Assembly: GCF_900113255.1 (NCBI RefSeq)
Contig: NZ_FOOR01000001.1
Span: forward strand, 434,001 to 498,000
DNA: 64,000 nt
Source of the DNA: Novosphingobium sp. CF614
Lineage (GTDB): Bacteria > Pseudomonadota > Alphaproteobacteria > Sphingomonadales > Sphingomonadaceae
Direction of reading: 5' to 3'
The notes under the pieces were generated by a model. It was not told where the DNA came from and made no database searches. It saw only the letters and a list, made by a program, of their open reading frames with translations. A program made the position numbers and the translations under genes. Shown piece by piece: positions 55,856 to 57,309 of the stretch. Positions within the stretch are counted from its first letter, which is position 1. Every line of letters starts with the position of its first letter.

Positions 55856-56131
55856 TCAGGGCTCGAACGAGCCCGGCAGATCGCGGCAGGCCAGCACCAT
55901 TCGGGCGATCTCGATGACGGGTACTTCCCACGGATGGACCGAGAGCAGGCGATCCACGGCGGCCAGCAATGCCGGATCGTCCGGCGCGCAAGGCGCATGG
56001 ACCGAAACGGTCACCGTCGGCGAGAGGCTGGCCTTGCCGGCCTTGCCCAGGATCGGCCGGGCATCGGCGCCGGGCCGAAAGCTTTCCCAGCCGATCCCGA
56101 TCTCCATGTCATGCGGTGCACCGCATGACAT
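55856..56131 (-). pseudogene. C-terminal fragment of a split CutA/NIF3-like gene
   Basis: About 83 residues read MEIGIGWESFRPGADARP, then VTVSVHAPCAPDDPALLAAV and LLSVHPWEVPVIEIARMVLA to a stop. The HPWEVP-type motif is typical of the CutA/NIF3-like alpha/beta fold (compare HPYEEP). The N-terminal part of this protein is at 57118-57309 on the same strand, ending abruptly at the inserted element. The first eight codons of the fragment come from the palindrome at 56103-56134. The fragment has no ribosome site of its own and is unlikely to be expressed. The family call is inferred from the motif and from the two halves joining logically. Confidence 0.6.
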
Positions 56132-56134
56132 GGA
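56103..56134. repeat. 32-bp perfect palindrome at element edge
   Basis: The 16-base halves (TCCATGTCATGCGGTG and its complement) are exact with no spacer, centre at 56118/56119. It overlaps the left inverted end of the GST element by three bases and contains the artificial start of the split gene fragment. It could be a recombinase crossover site or a remnant of the insertion event. Confidence 0.85.
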
Positions 56135-56162
56135 TTATGCGTAGTGCGCTATTATGCGGAGT
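56132..56162 (+). repeat. Left 31-bp inverted end of the GST element
   Basis: It differs from the right end at only three positions (5, 14 and 18 of 31). It contains GCGTAGTGCG followed by ATTATGCGGAG. The first three bases overlap the palindrome at 56103-56134. Confidence 0.8.
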
Positions 56163-56367
56163 TACGCGTTGAGGACGGCGGTTTTCCGCCCGATCTGTTG
56201 GCTCGCACGCCGCATGATAGTATACCCGCAACAGTGGCCAACTTGCCTGATAAGGCCGGATGAGCTAATGAGGGACGTCCGCGTAACTGGCGAGAAAGAT
56301 GGGGCACCATCGGGGAGCGTGGGCATTAGCCGCCGCTCGCCTGGGCATCTTCACTGAGGAGGCCCGC

Positions 56368-57012
56368 ATGCTTAAACTTATCATCGGCAACAAGAATTAC
56401 TCGTCTTGGTCGATGCGCGCTTGGATGCTGCTCAAGTTCGCTGAACTACCGTTTTCCGAGATTTGTATCGACTTGTATACGGCTGGCTCGCGGAAACGCG
56501 TGTTAGATCTGGGCGGGGAAACGGGTTTGGTGCCCGTGCTCGTTGTGGATGATCGCGCCATCTGGGACACGCTGGCTATTACCGAGTTTGTTTACGAGTT
56601 GCGGCCCCATATATGGCCTTCGGACGCCTTCGAGCGAGCGAAAGCTAGAAGCTACGCCGGAGAGGTGCATTCGGGCCTGACCGCTGTTCGTGCATCGATG
56701 CCGTGCAACACCCGGGCGCGGGAGCGCGTCGTCGAGATGTCAGAGGAAGTAGAACTCGAAATTGCTCGGGTAGCAGAAATCTGGTCGCGCGCTTCCGGCG
56801 ATTGGTTGTTCGGAGATTTCTCGGCGGCTGATGTCATGTTCGCTCCAGTCGCCGCGCGTTTCCGGACGTATGGGGTGGCCCTTAAAGATGGCAGGGCCGT
56901 GAGCTACTGGGAGAGACTAATCGCGCACCCGCTGTGTACCGAGTGGTTCGCGTTAGGTGAGGCGGAACCTGTGATAATCGAGCAGTTCGAGCTGCCTAGG
57001 CGTATCAAATAG
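56368..57012 (+). CDS. Glutathione S-transferase family protein (element cargo)
   Basis: This 214-residue protein begins MLKLIIGNKNYSSWSMRAWM, the SWS-R-W helix start of one GST subgroup. The thioredoxin half continues with LVPVLVVDDRAIWDTLAITE (cis-Pro and E-S/T glutathione-binding area), and the helical half has WLFGDFSAADVMFAPVAARF, the typical N-capping D. An excellent GAGGAGG site precedes the ATG at 56368. Codon use is clearly more A/T-rich than in neighbouring genes, which indicates transfer. It is the only gene of the inserted element. It may detoxify an electrophile; the substrate is unknown. Confidence 0.85.
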   Translation: MLKLIIGNKNYSSWSMRAWMLLKFAELPFSEICIDLYTAGSRKRVLDLGGETGLVPVLVVDDRAIWDTLAITEFVYELRPHIWPSDAFERAKARSYAGEVHSGLTAVRASMPCNTRARERVVEMSEEVELEIARVAEIWSRASGDWLFGDFSAADVMFAPVAARFRTYGVALKDGRAVSYWERLIAHPLCTEWFALGEAEPVIIEQFELPRRIK

Positions 57013-57099
57013 GCGATCTGGTCGCGGTAACGGCAGCCCCAGTATTATGCGGAGCGATCTGGTGCATAAACAGCAGATATCCGCCACGCTCAACCAACG

Positions 57100-57130
57100 A
57101 CTCCGCATAATAACGCGCTACGCATTATCC
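57100..57130 (-). repeat. Right 31-bp inverted end of the GST element
   Basis: It is the inverted copy of 56132-56162 with three mismatches. Its TAG (complement of 57118-57120) ends the truncated N-terminal gene fragment. The 236-bp and 87-bp non-coding flanks of the GST gene inside the element hold no other gene. Confidence 0.8.
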
Positions 57131-57309
57131 GCGACGCCGGCGTAGAGGCCATAATCTCCGAGCGGATTGTCATCCCGGATCACGCCGAGCACCCGCGCCA
57201 GGACCGGATCGCGCTCCCCGGCCTGGCCGTCACCCGCCAGCATGGCCGCCAGCGTCTGCTCCGCCACCGGGACATGGACGCGGACCAAGGTGATTTCGCG
57301 TGTCCTCAT
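57118..57309 (-). pseudogene. N-terminal fragment of the split CutA/NIF3-like gene
   Basis: This frame encodes 63 residues, MRTREITLVRVHVPVAEQTL through DNPLGDYGLYAGVADNA, then a TAG supplied by the inserted element. VRVHVPVAEQTLAAMLAG followed by a GDYGLYAG turn is the usual first half of the small CutA/NIF3-like domain whose second half is at 55856-56131. Its ATG overlaps the exonuclease stop by 4 bp (ATGA), so it is translated after the exonuclease but yields a truncated product. Confidence 0.6.

Follow-up and report, generated by a model that had tools for sequence, protein, structure and literature searches.

A 1-kb element with RIT-type ends carries a ZMP/ZTP riboswitch and a glutathione S-transferase-family gene in Novosphingobium sp. 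CF614

RIT (recombinase-in-trio) elements, for which Ricker 2013 is said to be the main paper, have three adjacent tyrosine recombinase genes, ritA, ritB and ritC, terminal inverted repeats of about 28 to 34 bp, and a palindrome next to one end. Excerpts of four papers (PMC3414803, PMC2864759, PMC10214605, and PMC8138268) cover RITs and the RitA, RitB and RitC proteins, the palindrome that accompanies the inverted repeats, and the inactivation of radC and IS66 genes; these excerpts make no mention of enzyme-less RIT copies. The excerpt of PMC3414803 gives the RIT a 28-9 bp inverted repeat with an overlapping palindrome, calls the role of the three proteins hard to understand and the end repeats unlike the usual sites, and states that RIT mobility still awaits experimental proof.

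The window, by which we mean the whole stretch of 64,000 nucleotides from Novosphingobium sp. CF614 that was analyzed, contains a 1-kb element (Table 1) with terminal inverted repeats of the RIT type and a palindrome next to one end. Recombinase similarity is absent from the element, as a first-pass annotation had read it, and since the ritA, ritB and ritC trio is missing, it is by definition not a RIT element. RIT ends without a recombinase are those of a non-autonomous RIT derivative, and by its ends the element is a RIT-derived, probably trans-dependent mini-element with a regulated cargo. Our favored explanation, which we consider likely, is that a non-autonomous RIT derivative with a riboswitch and glutathione S-transferase (GST) cargo has been moved in trans by a RIT trio. 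The nearest RITs, which target DUF736 genes on rhizobial plasmids and in the genus-mate G132, share with it the end motifs, a third inner motif, the one-sided palindrome and a similar target, whereas the window's element differs in having no recombinases, in its size (1 kb versus 3.4 to 7.5 kb), in its cargo and in its target gene.

Table 1. Features of the element and of the gene that it interrupts (positions within the window)
Feature	Position	Strand	Basis
Whole element	56103-57130	.	Junctions read against uninterrupted relatives
Perfect 32-nt palindrome, one side only	56103-56134	.	100% self-match; same place in other RITs
Left inverted end	56132-56162	+	Motif copies at 56134-56144 and 56151-56161
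Third motif copy, inverted, 46 nt inward of left end	56208-56218	-	9/11 match
ZMP/ZTP riboswitch aptamer, RF01750	56273-56353	+	62.6 bits, cut-off 39
Predicted hairpin, aptamer GGGC paired with bases over Shine-Dalgarno site	56343-56365	+	MFE fold
GST-family gene, 214 aa	56368-57012	+	ORF and domain search
Third motif copy, inverted, 46 nt inward of right end	57044-57054	+	11/11 match
Right inverted end, without palindrome	57100-57130	-	Repeat search; comparison with other RIT ends
5' part of interrupted small gene	57131-57309	-	ORF list; uninterrupted relatives
3' part of interrupted small gene	55856-56105	-	ORF list; uninterrupted relatives

The start of the element was placed at 56103 because the perfect palindrome stands on one side only. 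When the junctions were compared with those uninterrupted relatives, GGA proved to be common to both, which gives an inserted length of 1025 bp, and no duplication longer than GGA was seen. The interrupted gene is whole in all eight same-genus loci chosen for reading, which were picked from the matches of a search of same-genus genomes, and in five genomes (G048, G005, G057, G032, and G096) the matches to the two flanks lie side by side, 4 to 16 nt apart. The first-pass annotation had joined the two flanking fragments into one gene split by an enzyme-less cargo element, and this stands, except that the end of its 5' fragment and the start of its 3' fragment are element sequence. It had also allowed that close relatives might carry the same GST at this position and have no intact gene, or that the two fragments might have separate full-length homologues; neither was found, relatives having the intact gene, and among 149 same-genus genomes, the own genome included, the query was matched over its whole length in the own genome only. 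Six of the eight uninterrupted homologues align at 54 to 69% identity to the first. The product is at best tentatively CutA/NIF3-like, with a PDB profile match to the UPF0135/NIF3-type protein SA1388 (E 0.24), no Pfam family at cut-off, and no NCBIfam family for the one homologue that was tried.

The inverted ends are 90% identical over 31 nt, with an E value of 4.7e-4 when the entire 4.2-Mb genome was searched, and 76% identical over 58 nt when extended without gaps; in that genome they match only each other. Both follow the same plan, namely, two direct TTATGCGNAG-type motif copies and, 46 nt deeper inside the element, another in inverted orientation. The core ATTATGCGGAG occurs where it had first been noticed, at 56151, at 57044 and, on the reverse strand, at 57101, and again with one mismatch at 56134, giving four sites against 0.92 expected; 2 of 100 shuffles reach four. 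The analysis added to the first-pass annotation the third motif copy inside each end, the palindrome on one side, and the riboswitch, which that annotation had missed.

Searched against plasmids, the left end with its palindrome matched 45 records at E values up to 10, from rhizobia and others, of which 10 cover at least 80% of the query. The same end borders, in G132, a segment of about 4.9 kb containing three phage-integrase-domain genes; a plasmid search with that segment gave 831 matching records, in 15 of which the match spans 80% or more. Ten plasmid regions were read. Indeed, the same ends flank RIT trios both in G132 and on plasmids, which bears out the early hint at RIT recombinases. 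In eight two-ended elements from the plasmid regions and G132, a palindrome of type GTTATGCGGTGCACCGCATAAC separates the target from the end on one side and is missing on the other. Across 17 paired elements it is one-sided in 12, interrupted in L133 (by eye), present on both sides in L097, and not found in L125 and L143, with L072 outside this test. Of 83 distinct ends, 76 have a third, inverted motif further in, against 0.45 expected after composition shuffling; the 83 ends were selected on the first two motifs and not on the third, are partly related, and include probable chance matches. The distance is 46 to 47 nt in 54 cases, 67 to 69 nt in 11, and elsewhere in another 11. The two preferred distances differ by about two turns of the helix, and in some short RITs each of them is represented once. 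The end pattern allows at most one mismatch, so diverged RITs escape it; the genomes are samples of larger groups, and the matches in one of the searches with this pattern are a lower bound.

The search for end pairs covered 397, 324 and 322 genomes, with any match in 8, 19 and 38, respectively. Fifteen inverted pairs lie on one contig no more than 10 kb apart; 14 of them measure 3.36 to 7.51 kb, with recombinases checked in part of these, and the window's pair measures 995 bp. Thirteen of the 17 elements with both ends hold three recombinases, L097 holds fragments, and three hold none, these being the window's element and two copies in Oligosphaera ethanolica. The latter genome has three end pairs: one spans 3473 bp and encloses three recombinases, and the other two span 355 bp each. 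The 355-bp copies consist of bases 1 to 107 (98.1%) and the last 248 bases (96.0%) of the 3473-bp RIT, and are, as judged from this alignment, internal deletions of that same-genome RIT; they have 1.9 kb of flank in common at 98% and may be one insertion. Such MITE-like deletion derivatives resemble the window's element in having the ends of an autonomous element without its enzymes, but the one in the window has a gene and a riboswitch as cargo. A parent with near-identical ends was not found in the window's genome.

RIT-type ends without a trio in view were also seen at L048, L068, L104, L117 and L138, which might be cargo RITs; a partner end on the same contig was not found for L104, L117 and L138, and L048 has only one, 0.7 Mb away. 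The stretch from Pseudochelatococcus lubricantis (L117, 1-4373) combines a palindromic RIT-type end with a large gene inside that is carbamoyltransferase-like by eye; its 4.3 kb contain no recombinase, and it is possibly another cargo RIT. A 26-nt, 96% match near the GST stop codon in G119 was dropped, the RIT-type motif being missing beside it in the stretch examined. Five stretches of viral contigs with the end pattern were likewise set aside, having neither recombinase similarity nor a partner end in inverted order within the stretches examined.

A RitA query gave only 27 to 32% matches in the own genome. RitB and RitC queries led to a single locus there (G000, contig C44, 50622-52108; L251), where ritC is near-complete, with about 50% identity over most of its length, the match being broken by one stop codon. 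Of ritB, residues 206 to 372, its C-terminal half, are present at 47% identity. The 9 kb searched, which reach the contig end, yielded no RIT-type end and, apart from cross-matches, nothing of RitA. Because ritC and a partial ritB are present with neither RitA nor an end, a RIT was formerly in this genome or is incompletely assembled there. This remnant neither strengthens nor weakens the main reading much.

The short form might instead never have moved, a full RIT with the riboswitch and GST as passengers having inserted here and later lost its trio in place. We regard this as possible though rather unlikely. There is only a single copy, and full RITs do carry other genes (DUF736 and a helicase); against it, no recombinase trace is left in the element and both inner motifs are kept, although a clean deletion is compatible with both observations. 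We find it highly improbable that the element is an integron-type gene cassette, one gene with a hairpin site moved by an integron integrase. The attC core of integron cassettes is GTTRRRY, which TTATGC resembles, and the single gene, the small size and a hairpin would fit; by eye, however, GTTATGC is no fit to GTTRRRY, and the two inverted ends match RIT ends at several motifs, so that this reading is largely refuted by the RIT anatomy. If the preferred reading of a trans-mobilized RIT derivative is right, the element resembles an integron cassette in being a small one-gene unit dependent on recombinases elsewhere, and differs from it in having inverted ends with a symmetric joint and no attC seen by eye. 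Chance repeats with an ordinary gene insertion, or an assembly artefact, can hardly explain an element known from a single genome in 66 contigs when it lies inside a 617-kb contig and its ends share three motifs and the palindrome with RITs.

The insertion sites bear on how such elements are joined. Palindromic ends numbered 45, and a regular expression for the DUF736-type target flank gave 29 matches, 27 of them adjoining the palindrome; the remaining ones (L068 and L074) lie within the opposite flank and were rejected by eye as chance. Among 11 oriented trios, ritC is closer to the palindrome in 8 and ritA in 3. In O. ethanolica, the full RIT and the 355-bp copies share one insertion site in an IS66 transposase gene (assigned by Pfam) and face opposite directions, and despite this the palindrome is on the same target side. 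The palindrome is thus tied to the target and not to an element end, and therefore we infer that the circle joint is symmetric. The nearest RITs are inserted in DUF736 genes at a site similar to that in the window's small gene, where 15 of 21 bases around GAGATCGG agree with the G132 site by eye. The RITs targeting DUF736 genes bring along a DUF736 gene themselves, in some cases two (L035, 5912-6577 on the minus strand; L040, 810-1112 and 4975-5277; also L042, L043, L045, and L046, with the target taken from flank reading), as if the carried gene were a spare for the one broken by the RIT.

The cargo is a single ORF with GST_N_2 (5.5e-12) and GST_C_2 (6.2e-7) domains, preceded by GAGGAGG, in agreement with the GST gene and strong ribosome site first described. 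Its A/T-richer codon use was also confirmed, the GC3 being 0.66 versus 0.83 to 0.86 in two neighbor genes, and the GC content of the element is 57.3% versus 69.2% and 66.9% in the flanks. The nearest relative of the GST is 49% identical (397 genomes of the phylum, 249 with a match), and no sigma-70-type promoter was found on the plus strand inside the element. Family membership suggests a putative function in detoxification.

The leader of this gene contains a ZMP/ZTP riboswitch aptamer well above the Rfam cut-off, and a search of the own genome gave no other. The MFE fold places a hairpin over the Shine-Dalgarno site, with GGGC (56343-56346) and UCUUC on one arm and GAGGA and GCCC on the other; the energy of this hairpin is not better than that of shuffles (z -0.88; 38 of 200 as good). 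Among the 18 leaders of the family, the MFE fold fully pairs the aptamer GGG downstream in 12, and at least two G in 16, the pairing being absent in L196 and L197. The window's leader is thus like other ZTP (pfl) riboswitch leaders in having an aptamer and a hairpin over the start region, and unlike them in what it controls. RF01750 occurs in 18 of 199 family genomes, own included, and precedes genes for DJ-1/PfpI (10), RpiB (4, followed by glyA, by reading), FolB (2), LysE (1), and, in the window, GST (1). Most of these leaders (L188, L191 to L193, and L198 to L203) thus precede DJ-1/PfpI genes and not purine or folate genes. The pairing of a ZTP riboswitch with GST was found at none of the 17 other ZTP leaders and none of 29 other GST-homologue loci, which gave no Rfam match at cut-off; a literature search found no paper joining "ZTP riboswitch" with "glutathione S-transferase." The plasmid riboswitch match was a stretch before folD in Variovorax. 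Ligand-dependent control of the GST, and the direction of the switch, are suggested by the predicted fold.

From these features we infer movement in trans, a circle and a crossover point. RitA, RitB and RitC would be supplied by a full RIT, either on a plasmid or as the RIT whose remnant persists in the genome, and would bind the TTATGCGNAG motif copies that recur at both ends. The element would then form a circle in which the palindrome connects the two ends, and this circle would enter a coding site of the GAGATCGG type. Either entry direction would be possible because the joint would be symmetric, the palindrome staying on the same target side. Once inserted, binding of ZMP or ZTP would hold the aptamer GGGC, so that the ribosome site opens and the GST is translated.

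The element is known as one copy, in its inserted form, in the genome of a single strain. For the function of RIT ends and the need for three recombinases, the end plan offers a testable model, with two direct motifs, a third inverted one at 46 to 47 or 67 to 69 nt, and a palindrome tied to the target side; the 1-kb element is a handy substrate. More tentatively, RIT recombinases might serve small gene cassettes in trans, with a palindrome-joined circle entering a GAGATCGG-type coding site either way, an integron-like second life of RITs in which a metabolite-sensing leader would tie the gene to folate or purine stress wherever it has landed. With a gene under riboswitch control on board, such an element would couple the transfer of genes to the sensing of folate stress.
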